The notes: generated by a model not told the origin, from the sequence alone. Shown: positions 47,100 through 55,585, counted from the first letter of the stretch. The stretch: DNA of 64,000 nt from Thermobaculum terrenum ATCC BAA-798 (GCF_000025005.1 NC_013525.1:620001-684000), one strand, 5' to 3'. A program made the numbers and translations.

Positions 47100-47939
47100 C
47101 TATTCTCCCCCACGCTCTTGGGCCTCCGCTGCGAACCTATCCATTCGGTTCTTACGGAAACTTACAAGTCCAAGTATGCCCATCACTATCGCACCAAGCA
47201 CCGACAGTCCTGAGCTCGGCGCCAGGTTCTTGGATGGTAGCTGTGGATTTCTGGGTAATCCATAAACTTCAGGATCGTCGTCGAGTAGATAGAAAGCGTT
47301 GAGTCCTCCAAGAGGTCCATTCTCATCGGCACCGTATAGTTGTGCCTTGGTGTGTCCTTGTTCCTTGAGTTGCCTCAGTCTTTGATTAGCTCTCTGCTTG
47401 AGCTCGTCAATGTACCCAAATTGTATGGAATCCGTTGGACATGCCTGAGCACATGCGGGCTCTAGTCCTGCCTGTAGTCTGTCGTAACACAGGGTGCATT
47501 TTTGGGCCGTGCGGGATACTGGGTTTATATCTATCACCCCGAACGGGCAGGCTGCTATACAGGCTCTACAGCCGTTGCAGACATCAGATTGTATGACAAC
47601 TGTATCGTACTCAGTACGGATAATGGCACCCGTTGGACAGACTTCCAGGCAACCAGCCTGTACACAGTGCTTACACACATCGCTCATCATCAGCCAACGA
47701 GCTGTTGACCTGTCAGGAGTGAAATCTTCTATAAACTTTACGTGTCGCCAGTGTATGCCATCCAGCTTGCGAGTGTTATCATAGCTGATACCGCTGAGCG
47801 TATTGGCTCCACCGTTAGTGGCTGGTAGCTCGTTCCACTGCTTGCACGCCACCTCACATGCTTTGCAGCCTATGCAGATGGTTGTGTCCGTGAAGAATCC
47901 CATTGGTCTAGCTTGGAATTTCTGAGCTGTAGTTGCCAT
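47100..47939 (-). CDS. fdhB: Formate dehydrogenase iron-sulfur (beta) subunit
   Basis: An electron-transfer subunit with four 4Fe-4S sites. Start at 47939 (GGAGAAGGA before), overlapping the fdhA stop by one base (TAATG). Cysteine sets: CIGCKACEVACKQWN, CKHCVQAGCLEVCPTGA, CNGCRACIAACPFGV and CTLCYDRLQAGLEPACAQACPTDS. A C-terminal hydrophobic helix (about 247-264, LSVLGAIVMGILGLVSF) anchors it in the membrane next to the NrfD subunit. Confidence 0.95.
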   Translation of the reverse strand: MATTAQKFQARPMGFFTDTTICIGCKACEVACKQWNELPATNGGANTLSGISYDNTRKLDGIHWRHVKFIEDFTPDRSTARWLMMSDVCKHCVQAGCLEVCPTGAIIRTEYDTVVIQSDVCNGCRACIAACPFGVIDINPVSRTAQKCTLCYDRLQAGLEPACAQACPTDSIQFGYIDELKQRANQRLRQLKEQGHTKAQLYGADENGPLGGLNAFYLLDDDPEVYGLPRNPQLPSKNLAPSSGLSVLGAIVMGILGLVSFRKNRMDRFAAEAQERGGE

Positions 47940-50900
47940 TATTCCTTCTCCACGTTGCATACGAAAGCTTTCGCTTCATGTATGGATACATTTGGATCAC
48001 CCACTAGGGCCGACAAGTTGTTGGTAACATCTCCTGTTACCACCCCCTCATAACCCCAGTGCCAGGGCAACCCCACATGATGTACTATTTTGCCTTCGTC
48101 GCCTATCCTGAACGGCCGCATACGTCGTGTAACCAAAGCCTTGGCCCTGATCGTACCTCTGGGTGTGCTTACTTTGACCCAATCTAGATTCCTGATGCCC
48201 TTCTCTTCGGCGAGCTCAGGGCCGATCTCCAGAAATAGTTCCGGCTGTAGTTCAGCTAGCCAAGGTAGCCAACGGCTCATCACTCCTGAGAGGTGATGCT
48301 CCGTTAGCCTGTACGTAGTCAAGATGTACGGATAGCGGGGATCTCCTATTTCAGCCAGCTTCTCCTTAGGCTCCCATATCTTGGCCACCGGGCTGTATTG
48401 CTGTTGTGGGTACAGTGGATTACGTATGGGAGATTCTATGGGCTCATAATGAGTAGGTAGAGGTCCATCCACAAGGCCAGTAGGTACAAAGAGCCATCCT
48501 TTGCCGTCGGCTTTCATAATAAATGGATCGGTCCCGGAGTGTGCGTCCAGACCTATAGCACCTTCAGGTGGCTTGTAGCTAGGTGGCTTGTTCTTAGCAA
48601 AGTCCGGCACATCATACCCTACCCAAGCACCCTTGCTGGTCTTGCCTGTCACAGGATCGGTGTAGTCAGCATTGGGATCCCACCACACGTACTTCTTGCG
48701 GTCGCTCCAAGGTTTGCCTTCCAGGTCTGCAGATGCTCTGTTATAGAGCACTCGTCGGTTCGCTGGCCATGCAAAGCCCCACTTGAGATTGGGTTGCCAA
48801 GGCTGAGCATCCGGCGGATCTGGAACTTTGCTTGCGGCAAGGTTCATCTTGGGTTCCGGGAACACTCCACAGTATATCCAGGAAGCACATGTGGTTGATC
48901 CGTCATCTTTGAGCTCTGAGAAGCTCTTTAGGTGCTTACTGGGTTCTGCGGTGTAGAAGCCGTTGATCTCCTTCAGGATCTTGTATACGTCTGGTTCCCC
49001 TTCTGGATTGATATCGACCGATAGATCATCATCTGGCCTTAGAGCTTTGGACTCTTCATCCAGATCATAGTCCCATACAAGGTTCTTGAATCCCTGATCT
49101 CTAGGAAGGTCACTGTTTGCATAAAGCTGCTTGAGCCTCTTTCCAAGCTGATAGGTGAACCACAGATCTGATCTACAGTCTCCAGGGGATTCTGCAGCCT
49201 TATAATGCCACTGCATGAGCCTTTGTGTATTAGTAAAGCTGCCCTCAAGCTCTGCAACTTGGGCAGATGGGAAGAAAAACACCTCGGTCTGTATGTCTTC
49301 AGGCTTTATCTCTCCATTGCGTACCTCTGGTGAATTCTTCCAGAACGTAGCTGTCTCGGTTATGAAGTTGTCTTTGACCACCAGCCACTTTAGCTTGGCC
49401 AAAGCTCTGCGCTGGAAACCAGCGTCTTGCCCCCCAACAGCTGGGTTCTGACCTATGGCGAACATGCCCTCTACTTCTCCGTTCATCATGCGGACGAACG
49501 TGGGCATGTGTGAGTGGTCACCGACTATCTTGGGATGCCAGTCGTATCCGAAGTCGTTCTCCGGTGTAGCTGCATCACCATACATAGATTTCAGATAGCT
49601 GACCATGAACTTGGGTGTGTTAGCCCAATAGCTGGTAGGGAGAGTCTCCAGTGCCAGGTAATCTCCAAGAGTCTTGTGGTTCTTGCTCTTGGTGTGTGCA
49701 GGTGCTGGCATATAGCCCTGTATACTGTGGTAGAGAGTAGGTATATCTGTAGATCCTTGGATCGTGGCATGCCCTCTCAGAGCGAGGATGCCACCACCTG
49801 GCCTGCCGATATTCCCAAGCAGTAATTGGAGCAAGGCACAGCACCCTATGGTCTGGGGACCATCTGTGTGCTGAGTCCATGCTAGGGCGTAGGCAAATGC
49901 GGTGGTACGATCTCTTCCTGAGTTCTGCAGAATCGTCTCCGCTACCTTGAGGAATGTCTCCTTAGGACAGCCAGTGACCTTCTCAACCATCTCTGGGGTG
50001 TATCTATCGAAGTGTCTGCGCACTATCTGGAATACGCAGTTAGGATCCTGAAGGGTCTCATCCCTTCTAGGTGCGGGCTTTAGTAGCGACTTCACCAGGT
50101 TATCGTAAGGAGGTCCCTGAGGATTCTCAGGTTTTTGCCCCGGGTTACCCGAGGTTACGCTTTGTTCTCCTGACTGTGCTGTAGAGGCCGATCTGCCCTG
50201 ATCGCCAACGGGAGTACGTGCGTACTGCCAAGTAGTATTATCGTACTCACCTATGAATCCATTTATAGGATCACCCTCATACGGTTTCCATCCAGAGAAC
50301 TTGCCAGCGAGGTCTTCAGTATCTTTGTAATCCTCGTTGATTATAGTGGCGGCATTAGTGTAATGCAGCAGATAATTCCGGAAGAAATCATCCTTCTGCC
50401 ACCTCTCATCGTTGATTACATAGCGTATCAGTCCCCCTAGGAATGCTACGTCTGAACCCGAACGTATAGGCGCATGAATATCTGCCATAGCACTGGTGCG
50501 AGTAAACCGAGGGTCGACGTGGATAAGTTTCGCACCATTGAGCTTGGCCTGCATCACCCACCTGAAGGCTACGGGGTGACACTCAGCCATGTTTGATCCT
50601 TGTATAACTATGCAGTCGGAAGCTGTCAGATTAGCTGGAAAGGTCGTGGAGGCTCCACGTCCTAGCCTTGTTCCCAGACCGGGAACGCTCGAGCTGTGTC
50701 ATATACGGGCCTGGTTTTCAATGGCTACTACGCCTAGCCCTCTCATGAGCTTCTGTTGCAGATGGTTCCATTCGTTGTCCAGGGTTGCTCCACCCAATGA
50801 AAATATGGCCAGGGTATGCATCAGTGGAGTGCCATCATCAGCCTTCTCGACGAAGGTTCTGTCTCTAGTCTCCTTCACGAGGCGAGCCACTCTGTCCATT

Positions 50901-51295
50901 GCCTCGTTCAGATCCATCTCCTCCCACTCGGTGGCTCCTGGCTTTCGATGCAACACTTTAGTGACCCTGTTGGGATTAACATGGAGCTGGAAGCTAGCTG
51001 CTCCCTTAGGACACAAAGTTCCCTTATTGATTGGACTGTTCCTGTCCCCCTCTATGTTGACTATCTTGGGTCTGCCATCTTCACCCTGCACTGTGTGTAC
51101 TAAAGTGCCACATCCTACTGCACAATAAGGGCAGACGCTAGGTACCGCTCTGGCACGAACTATACGCGCCTCCTGAGCTTTCACTGTAGTGGGCTTAAGG
51201 TCCACCCCCATAGCTACTAGTCCTCCGAGAGCAGTACCGGCAGCAACCCCACCAGAGAGCCTAAGGAAGTCCCTCCTCGAGATAGTGGTACTCAT
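47939..51295 (-). CDS. fdhA: Selenocysteine-containing formate dehydrogenase catalytic (alpha) subunit
   Basis: Oxidises formate to CO2 at a Mo- or W-bis-MGD centre outside the membrane. The gene is one frame of 1118 residues interrupted by an in-frame TGA at 50699-50701, read as selenocysteine 199. Evidence: the flanking protein matches FdnG-type enzymes across the codon (...ENQARI-U-HSSSVPGLGTRLGRGAS...), there is no frameshift, and a SECIS hairpin follows at once. Residues 1-35 are a twin-arginine signal (SRRDFL). A 4Fe-4S site lies at CPYCAVGCG (about 55-63) with a last Cys in LCPKG. Later blocks include MAECHPVAFRW, GQNPAVGGQDAGFQRR and the C-terminal DWVKVSTPRGTIRAKA. First gene of the operon. 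Confidence 0.96.
50660..50701 (-). promoter_or_regulatory. Bacterial SECIS element of fdhA
   Basis: On the minus strand the TGA is followed after 13 bases by GTTCCC-GGTCT-GGGAAC (50670-50686), a 6-bp stem with the GGUCU loop. E. coli fdhF has the same loop at the same position after UGA, where SelB-Sec-tRNA binds. Confidence 0.9.
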
Positions 51296-51416: not shown

Positions 51417-52898
51417 TTAATTTCTTGAGGCGGAATGTTCCTTAGTATTATTGGTCATGGCTCTACGCAGGAAGATGACTAGTTGGAGGAAGTTCTCGAT
51501 GATGGGCCCGTTGATCTCTAAGGCTATTTCTTTACCATAAGTCCTTGAGGTCCTGATCAACAGCTCGTTGCCGAGTAGAGAATGCTTGAGGGTAATTAGG
51601 CTTATACTTGAGATGTCTATTCTCGAAACCTTATCGGGTACCTCGAATATCAACAGCTCATCTGAAGTGCAGGTCACGAGTTTGGCTGAGTTAGTAGAGC
51701 TACTTGGTGTGAAGGCAGATAATAGTACATCCTCTTGGCGAAGTATAGAGCTTCTGAGCTCTTGGAGAGACTTAAGATCTTCAAGATCAGACAGGTCTAG
51801 CACTCCTGAGTAATCTCGGTCGTTCAGTCCTTTGTCCTCATAGATTCGTCTCGGACTCTTACTGTTCTCAGGATATGGTAGGTATCTCCGTAATAAGCTT
51901 TCGGCTTCTGCCAACCAAAAAGTTTGTTCCCCTGGGAATGTGAATTCTAGGTGATGCTGATCTGACTTCGACCACAGGTCCAATGCTAATGTAGCTGTTT
52001 GTCCTTTTGTAAGGACTCTGACGTCTACTAGCCTCTCTGGTGGAAAAACATGAGCTACGTAACCCCAGTGGATACCTGTAGAATTGCTGGGGGGTCTCAC
52101 ATCTTCCACAAATAGAACCTGCTGATCTGTGATGAGCAGGATGCCCTCTGCAAGACGCCTCTTTCCTAACAATCCTAGTATCTCTCGGCCTTCTGAAATG
52201 GGCGGTCTGAGGACATACAATAGTATTCTTTCCTCAGGGTGTAAGCATTCTGCTATGTATTTTTGAAACCTATATGGAAGCCTTAGAACTTCCCTTTCAT
52301 ATTGAGTATGAACCTCAGATTCATCCAGCCGATGCTCCTGCAGCATCGAGGCCATCCAAGCAGGTGATGAAGACCATCCACTTTGTAGTTTTCTCTGTGA
52401 GTGGATATATCGTTCAATTGCCGCTTGCAGCGTCCGATGCGCGTCTTCCTTACTTAGCAACTCGTATTTGCATTCCTCTAAGAGGGATTGTCTTACGTCC
52501 ACTGGAAGGCTATTTATTGCGTCCTGCGGCGTTTCTGCAGATACATAAACAGGATCTCCGGGGATAGTAGCTAATAATACTGTAGGGCAGTTCACTTGAA
52601 GGCCTTTAGGCTTCAATAGACCGATCACTCTTACAAGGACGTATGTTCCGGGTGCTACGGATAGACTTGAGAACACCCATGCTTTAAGACTTGTGCCATC
52701 TTCGGTTATTGTTCTCGGTACTAATCCAGTATCTACAAGTAAATTAGACTTGTGAGCTATCAATTGACTAACCAACAGCTGTCGTGCGCGGTCGTCATAG
52801 GTATATTCCAAGTACTCCTTACCAGCCTCTGTTATCAGCACCTTAACCGTCTTTTCCTCAGCCTGGATCCAATGCCTTGTAAGTTCCTGGTGAGACAT
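51417..52898 (-). CDS. Protein with two PH-like regions, last gene of the fluoride-riboswitch operon
   Basis: A 493-residue soluble protein of no family I can name. About 1-210 is mixed and partly helical (DAINSLPVDVRQSLLEECKYELL). About 215-340 resembles a bacterial PH/GRAM domain: LHPEERILLYVLRPP, then GILLITDQQVLFVEDV, HVFPPERLVDVRV, and a final helix FWLAEAESLLRRYL. About 385-485 looks like a second copy: RQEDVLLSAFTPS, KLVTCTSDELLIFEV, VSRIDISSISLITLKHSL, and ending IIENFLQLVIFLRRAM. PH-like domains in bacteria often sense stress or bind membranes. Separated from the next gene upstream by 4 bases. Confidence 0.6.
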   Translation of the reverse strand: MSHQELTRHWIQAEEKTVKVLITEAGKEYLEYTYDDRARQLLVSQLIAHKSNLLVDTGLVPRTITEDGTSLKAWVFSSLSVAPGTYVLVRVIGLLKPKGLQVNCPTVLLATIPGDPVYVSAETPQDAINSLPVDVRQSLLEECKYELLSKEDAHRTLQAAIERYIHSQRKLQSGWSSSPAWMASMLQEHRLDESEVHTQYEREVLRLPYRFQKYIAECLHPEERILLYVLRPPISEGREILGLLGKRRLAEGILLITDQQVLFVEDVRPPSNSTGIHWGYVAHVFPPERLVDVRVLTKGQTATLALDLWSKSDQHHLEFTFPGEQTFWLAEAESLLRRYLPYPENSKSPRRIYEDKGLNDRDYSGVLDLSDLEDLKSLQELRSSILRQEDVLLSAFTPSSSTNSAKLVTCTSDELLIFEVPDKVSRIDISSISLITLKHSLLGNELLIRTSRTYGKEIALEINGPIIENFLQLVIFLRRAMTNNTKEHSASRN

Positions 52899-52902
52899 TT
52901 CC

Positions 52903-53394
52903 CTACCTTCCGATTATCCAGCTGCGAATCCTTTGCCAAAAAGATCTGAAGCCAGGATTATTAGTACTAACCATAGGTACATTGAGAGCTTTGGTTTCAA
53001 GCTGGGACAACTGGTCCCGCAGACTTTGGTTCTCCTGTGAAAGTTCGAAGAGCCTTTGTTTTACCTGTTCTGACCAGGATTTCCACATTTCAACCGAGCC
53101 CTCCAAACCCGCCACTTTGAACTGCAGAGTCTGATTATCTCTCTCCAGGGAGAATGCCCTAAACTTCATTGCGCTATATCTGCCTTCACAATCTGCGAGG
53201 CGTCTTAGTAAGGTTTTCTCATCATTACTTTCAGTGCCTAGTAAACGTTCTGTTTGGAAGTCTGCTAGCCCTTTATCAATGAGAAATCTCAGCGATTTCT
53301 CCTCGTCCCATCCCTGTTCCTCTGCCAGCTGTTTGATACTTAGGTAGGTAGTGGATAGTAACTTTATTTGTAGAGTTACGCATTCCTCTTCCAA
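52903..53394 (-). CDS. Hypothetical coiled-coil protein in the fluoride-riboswitch operon
   Basis: A 163-residue protein: an N-terminal ribbon-helix-helix-like or short helical segment (LLSTTYLSIKQLAEEQGW), a long predicted coiled coil (about 60-135, LRRLADCEGRYSAMKFRA, then LFELSQENQSLRDQLSQLE) and a basic/aromatic end (FWQRIRSWIIGR). TTG start with AGGAG 8 bases upstream. Function unknown; it sits between the CBS and PH-like genes. Confidence 0.6.
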   Translation of the reverse strand: MEEECVTLQIKLLSTTYLSIKQLAEEQGWDEEKSLRFLIDKGLADFQTERLLGTESNDEKTLLRRLADCEGRYSAMKFRAFSLERDNQTLQFKVAGLEGSVEMWKSWSEQVKQRLFELSQENQSLRDQLSQLETKALNVPMVSTNNPGFRSFWQRIRSWIIGR

Positions 53395-53410
53395 TTAGAA
53401 AGCTCCTAAC

Positions 53411-54691
53411 TTATGTTGCCTGTATTGATAACGATGAGAGGATTTCGTCACGAGCAATCACTCCCACAAGCTTTCCTGAATCATCGACTACAGGCAGGAT
53501 CTTCTTTCTTTGTTTCACCATAAGTTCTGCTGCACTACTTATGTCTGCATCCGCACTAATACAAACTACTTCGCGGTTCATTATGTCCTCGGCAGTTCGG
53601 GCTCTGATCTTACGAATATGCTCCATCGAGCGCTCATCCCTGAGTATTTGGGCTCTTAAAATCTCCATAATACCAGCCCTATTGTGACTGCTTACTGCAT
53701 TCATTAGGTCACTACTACCGATTATGCCTTTCACTTTGTTCTGTTCGTCTACTACTATCAGCCTATGTATCGGCGATTCTAGTAGCCCCTTTACTACGTC
53801 CAATATAGGTGCACCTAAATCCACTGTTGGAACTTGAGTGTGCATAATGTCGCTTACTTTCGTACTGCTTGAGATCTGTGAAGGAGGCTTTAGATCTTCC
53901 TCTCTTGCTTTGGTATGCATTGCTGCAGCTAGGATATCTACCCTGCTGACTATCCCCACAAGCTTATCTTGATCATCTACAACTGGCAAACGTTTTATCT
54001 TCTTTGAGGCCATTAGGTTAGCAGCTTCTTGAGCAGTTGCATCCTGATTTATAGTCACTGCTGGTTTACTCATTACACTGGATACGCTTGAGTTGTAGGC
54101 TTTGTTGTGGAGATCCTTCTTATCTACGTCGGTTTTGTCTAATAAGGGCAGATAGAAGGGCAGTATGCCCTGGTTGACAAGATCGGAGCTGGTTATCACC
54201 CCCAAGACGTGTTTCTCGTTATCAATCACAGGGAGGGCCTTGAATACTTGATTGTATAGCAGCTCGATAGCGTCAACTATTGGAGAGCTCACGTTTATAG
54301 ATATGGGGTTTGGAGTCATAATCTCCTTTATTCTGATGTTTCTCAGCTCTCTCCCTGGATGGAATTCTCCATAAGAGTGCACATCTACATCTTCGACAGT
54401 TATAAGCCCATTTACTCCCATGCTCTGAAGCATGGGCAAAAGTTTCTCGATCTTCTCAGGGATATCCACGATGTCTATCACCAGGGGTAGGTCTTCGGAT
54501 AATCTCAGGATTTTGGCAGTATGCAACCTACTTCCTCGCCCATAGCCTTCTATACCCCTTAGCACTGTTGCCCCAGCATAGCCCTCTTTCCGCAGCATCT
54601 CCACAATGGCTGTATGCATAGGCTTGCCCTGGTAGCTATCTGACTCTCCTATATAGATCCTCACCCTCTTAGCCTTACCTATAACGTTCAT
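53411..54691 (-). CDS. DUF190 plus four CBS domains
   Basis: The start at 54691 has AGGAG 8 bases before it; a longer frame opens at 54748. The N-terminal DUF190 domain (about 5-105) shows KRVRIYIGESDSYQGKPMHTAIVEMLRKEGYAGATVLRGIEGYG, a PII-like ferredoxin fold. Four CBS motifs follow, each starting with an IMT/VMS/IMH/IMN-type line: IKEIMTPNPISINV, VSSVMSKPAVTIN, VSDIMHTQVPTV and AEDIMNREVVCIS. CBS pairs bind adenine nucleotides. DUF190 genes are, as I recall, often found beside crcB fluoride exporters, which fits the riboswitch upstream. No membrane segment is seen. Confidence 0.88.
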   Translation of the reverse strand: MNVIGKAKRVRIYIGESDSYQGKPMHTAIVEMLRKEGYAGATVLRGIEGYGRGSRLHTAKILRLSEDLPLVIDIVDIPEKIEKLLPMLQSMGVNGLITVEDVDVHSYGEFHPGRELRNIRIKEIMTPNPISINVSSPIVDAIELLYNQVFKALPVIDNEKHVLGVITSSDLVNQGILPFYLPLLDKTDVDKKDLHNKAYNSSVSSVMSKPAVTINQDATAQEAANLMASKKIKRLPVVDDQDKLVGIVSRVDILAAAMHTKAREEDLKPPSQISSSTKVSDIMHTQVPTVDLGAPILDVVKGLLESPIHRLIVVDEQNKVKGIIGSSDLMNAVSSHNRAGIMEILRAQILRDERSMEHIRKIRARTAEDIMNREVVCISADADISSAAELMVKQRKKILPVVDDSGKLVGVIARDEILSSLSIQAT

Positions 54692-54701
54692 TGCTCTTCT
54701 C

Positions 54702-55430
54702 CTATGTCTTATCCAAATCCAAACCTCTAATCCCAGCCTCACCAGCAATGTGACGTATGGTTCTCAGGTCTGCTCCTCTTTCTTCTGTAATGGGTTCGAA
54801 CCTAAACCTATAGTCATGCTTGCGTATGATCTCAAGCAGCTGTTTGCGCAGACCATCATTTTGCTTTATTGAATGCTCTTTCAGGAAATGAAAGATCTTA
54901 CTATTTGGAGCAAGCTGAAGCGCAGATCGCAGATGTATCAAGCATAATCCTAGAGAATGTTCGTAGGTAGAACGAAACTCTTGTTCTGAAAGCCCTTCTA
55001 GAAAAGCTTCTCTCGCTATCTTCTCGGACTCTGCCTGGACGGTACAAGCAGGGCATACCTTTGTGGAGTTAATTGGTACTTTGCTATGATGCTCATGAAT
55101 GTTCTTGCCAGTTATAAGCGTGCTTACAGAGGTGATTAAGTCTCGTCTCTGGTATTCAAGCTGCTGCAGGTCTTCGTTAATATGCTCAAGCACATCACTG
55201 TATATTATGGCAGTTCCTAGTAGATGTCTCTGATCCAGCCATTGGTAAGCATGCTTGTTACAGAAGCCATACGAGGCACGTAGTGAATCTCTAACTTGCG
55301 GATCATTTACAGATTCATAAGAAACACTATCCATCCAGCTAGCGACCGCGCGTAATGCTACAGAACATATAGGACATTCTCCGTTTTTTATGGCTTCTAA
55401 CAGATCATAATATAGACTCTCGTGGCTCAT
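54702..55430 (-). CDS. DUF6062-like Cys/His-rich protein, first gene behind the fluoride riboswitch
   Basis: A 242-residue helical soluble protein with two parallel metal-binding-like units: CPIC (about 19-22) with GFCNKHAYQW (about 56-65), and CPAC (about 125-128) with GLCLIHLRSAL (about 161-171). Each unit has CPxC followed at about 35 residues by CxxH, as in DUF6062-type proteins. Function unknown; a zinc- or iron-binding structural role is likely. It is the first cistron after the riboswitch leader and 10 bases before the DUF190-CBS gene. Confidence 0.75.
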   Translation of the reverse strand: MSHESLYYDLLEAIKNGECPICSVALRAVASWMDSVSYESVNDPQVRDSLRASYGFCNKHAYQWLDQRHLLGTAIIYSDVLEHINEDLQQLEYQRRDLITSVSTLITGKNIHEHHSKVPINSTKVCPACTVQAESEKIAREAFLEGLSEQEFRSTYEHSLGLCLIHLRSALQLAPNSKIFHFLKEHSIKQNDGLRKQLLEIIRKHDYRFRFEPITEERGADLRTIRHIAGEAGIRGLDLDKT

Positions 55431-55461
55431 TCCCGTCCCTTTTATCTAAGTGGATAGTAAT

Positions 55462-55500
55462 AAAAATAGCTTCTACCAAGATTAATCTTGGTAGAAGCTA
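55462..55500 (-). terminator. Riboswitch terminator
   Basis: A perfect 34-base palindrome (55467-55500) followed on the minus strand by TTTTTATT. Its 5' arm (AGCTTCTACC) is the 3' strand of the aptamer pseudoknot, so aptamer folding and terminator folding exclude each other. Confidence 0.9.
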
Positions 55501-55537
55501 TCAGCCTTGTGCGGCGCTTAAGGCGAGCTTCATCGCC
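55488..55537 (-). ncRNA. Fluoride riboswitch (crcB motif) aptamer
   Basis: Minus-strand RNA: GGCGAUGAAGCUCGCC, then UUAAGCGCC-GCACAA-GGCUGAUA, then GCUUCUACC. It matches the known Thermotoga petrophila fluoride aptamer block by block (GGCGAUG, CGCC, GGCUGAU, CUAC). The pseudoknot pair covaries: GAAGCU with AGCUUC here, against GAGGCC with GGCCUC there. With the overlapping terminator the logic is ON when fluoride is bound. It controls 55430-51417. Confidence 0.9.
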
Positions 55538-55556
55538 TGTATTCAGTTTACACCAG

Positions 55557-55585
55557 ATTATATTTCAGACTCCTGGACAAGTCAA
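55557..55585 (-). promoter_or_regulatory. Promoter of the fluoride-riboswitch operon
   Basis: Minus strand TTGACT (complement of 55580-55585) and TATAAT (complement of 55557-55562) with a 17-base spacer. The transcript would begin near 55550, about 13 bases before the aptamer. Confidence 0.82.

Follow-up and report, generated by a model that had tools for sequence, protein, structure and literature searches.

A fluoride riboswitch heads a four-gene operon without a recognisable exporter on the minus strand of a 64,000-nucleotide stretch of the Thermobaculum terrenum ATCC BAA-798 genome (GCF_000025005.1 NC_013525.1:620001-684000; hereafter the window, with positions counted from its first letter). 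From comparison with other Chloroflexota genomes, we identify this operon as part of a phylum-wide accessory fluoride-response module, and it probably acts alongside an exporter encoded elsewhere in the genome. The riboswitch class is already known, while a dead relative of pyrophosphatase (PPase) in a fluoride operon is apparently undescribed. We also consider it rather likely that this protein (gene 4, here termed PPx) and the metal-binding DUF6062 protein of gene 1 are dedicated fluoride-stress proteins under riboswitches of their own, accompanied by a PII-like/CBS regulator of the exporter, in a phylum-wide, non-exporter response that would be undescribed.

The operon leader aligns with the full RF01734 model (positions 1-64) at 46.5 bits (E 9.3e-11), above the gathering threshold of 34. 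Our own covariance model, trained on 27 Chloroflexota riboswitches with the T. terrenum operon aptamer included among the 27, gave the aptamer 56.5 bits (E 2.7e-17) and found no other site in the window. A crcB/fluoride aptamer had been proposed at 55488-55537 in a sequence-only reading of the window made without database searches; the proposal is borne out by this significant family match, with a slightly longer extent. The overlapping terminator, then placed at 55462-55500, was also recovered, as a 17-bp stem. Its 5′ arm (GAUAGCUUCUACC) includes the partner strand of the GAAGCU loop in the aptamer pseudoknot, and because this strand belongs to both structures the aptamer and terminator folds are predicted to be mutually exclusive. 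The promoter proposed for the leader has good -35 and -10 elements at a fitting position, but a promoter scan returned matches at chance level (8 found against 7.6 expected), so the call rests on position. In leaders of the RF01734 class the terminator overlaps the motif and the ligand raises expression (Weinberg 2010, PMC2864571). The T. terrenum RNA is like that class in aptamer consensus, in its position in the 5′ untranslated region and in its motif-overlapping terminator; it shows no difference from the class, and only the downstream genes are unusual. By these matches, the operon leader is a genuine fluoride riboswitch.

Four same-strand open reading frames with plausible ribosome sites follow the terminator, spaced 10, 16 and 4 nt apart (Table 1). 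For gene 2 the start was corrected from TTG 54748 to ATG 54691, and gene 3 starts at TTG 53394. No CrcB/Fluc or CLC-F exporter was found in the operon, as judged by matches to PF02537 and PF00654 and by membrane helices, and none of the four proteins has a strongly hydrophobic 19-residue window. In this the sequence-only reading, which had described a four-gene operon with no exporter and no clear membrane helices, was accurate. Its gene list was right as to DUF6062, DUF190 with four CBS domains and the coiled coil; the protein it called ‘two-PH-like’ does appear to carry tandem PH-like domains, but the pseudo-pyrophosphatase domain at its N terminus had been overlooked.

Table 1. Features of the fluoride-riboswitch operon, in window coordinates
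Feature	Position	Strand	Basis or description
Fluoride riboswitch aptamer (RF01734)	55485..55546	(-)	Rfam covariance model and own model
Intrinsic terminator (expression platform)	55465..55502	(-)	17 pairs followed by a U run; 5′ arm overlaps the 3′ pseudoknot strand of the aptamer
Putative sigma-70-type promoter, TTGACT-17-TATAAT	55557..55585	(-)	11/12 consensus positions; right place for the leader
Gene 1, DUF6062 (PF19538)	54702..55430	(-)	Pfam E 5e-22
Gene 2, DUF190 (PII-like) and four CBS domains	53411..54691	(-)	Pfam DUF190 6e-38, CBS 2e-58 in four stretches
Gene 3, coiled-coil protein	52903..53394	(-)	Short N-terminal domain; conserved YAVMKFRAF-like motif
Gene 4, PPx (493 aa)	51417..52898	(-)	Family-I pyrophosphatase-like domain, predicted dead (~16-170); PH-like domains (~220-340, 390-493)

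The T. terrenum YNP1 genome consists of two chromosomes of 2,026,947 and 1,074,634 bp (PMC3035366). Across the whole genome (99.96% complete) our searches found CrcB once and the fluoride riboswitch exactly twice, at the operon and at a second site (C1:1684987). The latter lies about 1 Mb from the operon and has its own overlapping hairpin, with CrcB (C1:1685112) about 50 nt on. The sole CrcB being encoded at this distant riboswitch, the exporter is in trans rather than absent; the earlier description of an exporter-free module therefore applies to the operon but not to the cell, and the idea that the organism itself lacks an exporter was rejected. A single CLC homologue (C1:1167006) does not adjoin a fluoride riboswitch, and a standalone DUF190 protein on chromosome 2 is 72% identical to the DUF190 domain of gene 2. 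Of other PPases, the genome encodes a membrane enzyme and a family-II enzyme that has a long frame, but no intact family-I PPase was found in it.

Linkage to fluoride riboswitches was followed in 400 Chloroflexota genomes, where a profile search yielded 18 further PPx proteins, 20 in total with those of the T. terrenum operon and of G003, a genome of the same family; this was far better than a contig scan with the first PPx alignment, which gave only two relatives. Loci were chosen by protein, not by riboswitch, gene calls in high-GC genomes were made by homology only, and the sampled genomes are related, so that the counts below are not independent events. A riboswitch stands directly before PPx or heads its operon at 12 of the 20 loci. 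At ten of them, from eight genera (three of the ten being close relatives within one genus), it lies on the PPx strand no more than 800 nt upstream, and in T. terrenum and L139 it is at the operon head. Locus L139, from another family of the phylum, has the T. terrenum order minus gene 2 (riboswitch, DUF6062, coiled coil, PPx), and L212 has riboswitch, DUF6062 and PPx (partial). In G003, DUF190-CBS adjoins PPx 5.1 kb behind a riboswitch at the head of a MoxR-like gene run; this contig (L065) carries five fluoride riboswitches in all, and an intact PPase follows one of them. The order riboswitch, DUF6062, CrcB is also found in this genome (L067). For DUF6062, 32 of 107 copies have a riboswitch within 2 kb upstream, 22 of them within 300 nt. 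Homology to DUF190-4CBS identified 16 loci, and in 11 of these CrcB is its neighbour. Around PPx and DUF6062 genes, 62 riboswitch matches at E ≤ 1.5e-4 were obtained in 1.02 Mb (a few double-counted in overlapping loci), whereas 325 kb of arbitrary control DNA from the same genomes gave no riboswitch match above 11.3 bits. No PPx was found on plasmids. The gene set is thus found again behind crcB motifs in related genomes, and on these comparisons the fluoride control and gene linkage of the operon are well supported. The suggestion of an undescribed module survives in that the fluoride-linked gene set is apparently undescribed, but DUF190-CBS is no orphan, being normally a neighbour of CrcB.

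The N terminus of PPx matches Pfam PF00719 at 26.1 bits (cut-off 23.5). Against family-I PPases of the PDB it reaches E 1e-6 as a single protein and E 2e-24 as a family profile, and its predicted structure matches the PPase fold with a Foldseek E of 2e-9 (model predicted local distance difference test (pLDDT) 61, fold level only). Yet of the 14 catalytic and metal residues the T. terrenum protein retains D65 alone, and none of the members read retains a consistent set, whereas intact PPases from similar fluoride loci keep 14 of 14. The 14 sites are those of the E. coli PPase reference sequence (E20 K29 E31 R43 Y51 Y55 D65 D67 D70 D97 D102 K104 Y141 K142, E. coli numbering). Judged by these residues, PPx is a family-I pyrophosphatase fold with its active site lost, and it was rejected as an active PPase. 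It shares its N-terminal fold with soluble family-I pyrophosphatases (PF00719; PDB 1qez, 4z71), and differs from them in the missing active site and in two added PH-like domains. The C-terminal 300 residues are modelled as a pair of barrels, with seven strands and a closing helix in each; their best Foldseek matches are the tandem-PH proteins Rtt106/Spt16, with the bacterial PH domain 3hsa also matched; Pfam bPH_3 is weak in the family (E 0.04, 2 of 18 proteins). With pLDDT values of 61 and 68 and three underlying sequences, the AlphaFold models have moderate confidence, and at that level of confidence we interpret this part as tandem PH-like domains. An in-frame TAA divides the PPx gene of one locus (L015 5515-6506, G022) into a pyrophosphatase-like and a PH-like part.

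Gene 1 matches DUF6062 at 78.9 bits (cut-off 27). Its two sites, C19-C22-C57-H60 and C126-C129-C163-H166, have all eight ligands invariant in 34 homologues, which makes metal binding likely, and DUF6062 is likely a small two-site metal-binding protein; a profile search of the PDB for its fold gave nothing significant. Tandem-duplicated DUF6062 proteins of 430-560 aa were also seen (L139, L140, L158, L215, L227, L232), in which one half is often a part-domain match. Gene 2 scores 129.4 bits against PF02641 (cut-off 23.4) and 195.2 bits against PF00571 (cut-off 24), and its DUF190 domain matches PDB 2dcl with E 5e-26. It thus has both domain types of DUF190 PII-like proteins (PDB 2dcl, 1o51) and CBS regulators at full length, but differs from these in fusing one and four such domains and in belonging to an operon whose exporter is unlinked. 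In G077, a c-di-AMP (cyclic di-adenosine monophosphate) riboswitch (81.9 bits; L074 3368-3501 (-)) lies directly downstream of a fluoride riboswitch, CrcB and DUF190-CBS operon. The coiled-coil gene 3 recurs with DUF6062 in related genomes; a ribbon-helix-helix match is weak in its homologues (E 0.11-0.17) and was not obtained for the T. terrenum protein itself.

By analogy with the RF01734 class, a rise in cytosolic fluoride would lead the leader to adopt the F-/Mg2+-binding aptamer, which would hold the strand that the terminator needs; the terminator would then fail and the four genes would be co-transcribed. CrcB would be induced in parallel by the second riboswitch, an arrangement that is present in the genome. 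Its domain types and linkage suggest that the DUF190-4CBS protein is probably a PII-like adenine-nucleotide sensor, tuning CrcB or the response to the energy state. PPx retains the fold of the poisoned enzyme but lacks the metal cluster targeted by fluoride, has gained interaction domains, and is most likely no enzyme. In view of the lost site, our best guess, to which we give an even chance, is that this descendant of a fluoride-poisoned enzyme is a non-catalytic scaffold or ligand-binding regulator. DUF6062 and its frequent coiled-coil partner are linked to fluoride by genome context and are probably regulatory or protective.

Several observations weigh against this interpretation. No riboswitch lies within 2 kb of 75 of the 107 DUF6062 copies, among them the second T. 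terrenum copy (L218 4327-5127, G000:C1:181051), which is without a fluoride riboswitch. Some PPx loci also have no nearby riboswitch, although several of these contigs (L144, L148, L141) end too early to show one. The action of DUF190-CBS on CrcB is argued from linkage only, and the two are unlinked in T. terrenum. The regulatory role of PPx is deduced from a loss of function, and the pLDDT of the AlphaFold models is only 61 and 68.

Other explanations differ mainly in what they make of PPx. It might act on true pyrophosphatases, as a subunit in mixed oligomers or as an antagonist, and either shield or restrain them when fluoride is present: family-I PPases are oligomers, the fluoride-riboswitch contig L065 of G003 encodes both PPx and an intact PPase, and in G022 CrcB-CrcB-DUF190CBS has an intact PPase as its neighbour. 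This is less likely here because the T. terrenum genome offers PPx no intact family-I PPase as a partner, and we consider it unlikely. We also give little credence to the idea that the operon is ordinary CrcB support, in which only DUF190-CBS matters, through exporter regulation, and the other genes are passengers. CrcB-DUF190-CBS is indeed the commonest pairing in the class, but PPx and DUF6062 stand directly behind their own riboswitches in many genomes without DUF190-CBS or CrcB adjoining, and other families (L139, L141) share the order DUF6062, coiled coil, PPx. It is very unlikely that PPx, through a remodelled active site, still works as a pyrophosphatase insensitive to fluoride and stands in for the poisoned housekeeping enzyme. 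Genes for functional PPases are among those known to be controlled by fluoride riboswitches (PMC5533749, PMC11139923), PPx has the family-I fold, and intact family-I PPases stand behind fluoride riboswitches in related genomes (L065, L184, L194); against this, the catalytic residues that those enzymes keep are lost in PPx, and T. terrenum already has its family-II and membrane PPases. Recent capture of the riboswitch by an unrelated operon for whose genes fluoride is irrelevant is hardly credible: DUF6062 and DUF190-CBS do exist away from fluoride riboswitches, but this explanation is refuted in its general form because the association recurs (PPx in at least 10 genera, DUF6062 as counted above) while control DNA is without riboswitches. 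We therefore retain the accessory operon, acting beside an exporter in trans, as the preferred explanation.

Known fluoride defence consists of export and extra copies of poisoned enzymes. The fold of a poisoned enzyme without its chemistry, fluoride-controlled in many genera, suggests a regulatory or structural fluoride response, and the operon offers a first testable role for DUF6062, for DUF190-CBS proteins and for the coiled-coil family. At low pH, fluoride readily enters cells as hydrogen fluoride (HF). T. terrenum is cultivable, and its source was hot soil of pH 3.9 (PMC3035366). One close counterpart is the multi-gene fluoride resistance operon of Enterobacter cloacae FRM, ppaC-uspA-eno-gpmA-crcB-orf5249 (PMC5533749). 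Both operons have one fluoride riboswitch, several genes and a pyrophosphatase, in T. terrenum a relative from another family; the E. cloacae operon encodes intact enzymes and includes CrcB, whereas in T. terrenum the pyrophosphatase relative is apparently dead and CrcB is in trans. In the open literature searched, DUF6062 was not mentioned in any paper, and no paper connected DUF190 with the fluoride riboswitch, although either may be mentioned earlier in supplementary tables of subscription papers.

Some Chloroflexota contigs carry fluoride riboswitches in islands. On contig C30 of G204, a stretch of 30 kb (185935-215361; L145, L239, L240) contains at least eight, several in divergent pairs, and contig C46 of G271 has five to six; similar clusters were seen at L142, L244 and L153. 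Genes behind the riboswitches, named by eye from sequence, include a sodium/proton antiporter, UspA-like and MutS-like proteins, formate-hydrogenlyase-like subunits, enolase, HAD, PPase and CrcB, and look like the known fluoride gene set (PMC11139923, PMC2864571). Additional genes in this position encode DUF6062, PPx, an MFS-like transporter, and MoxR-like and HEAT-repeat-like proteins. Runs of MoxR-like ATPase and DUF58-like genes are often close behind fluoride riboswitches (L065 13077-13160 (+), L140, L146, L233-L238).

Directly downstream of the T. terrenum operon lies a gene for a formate dehydrogenase alpha subunit (window 47939-51295 (-)). Formate hydrogenlyase is a known fluoride-linked function. 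The dehydrogenase frame contains a TGA at 50699-50701 (context ARI-TGA-HSSSVPGLG) and probably encodes a selenocysteine enzyme. No terminator was found between the operon and this gene, so that fluoride-dependent readthrough into it is possible; the gene also has a promoter-like site of its own at 51377-51349.

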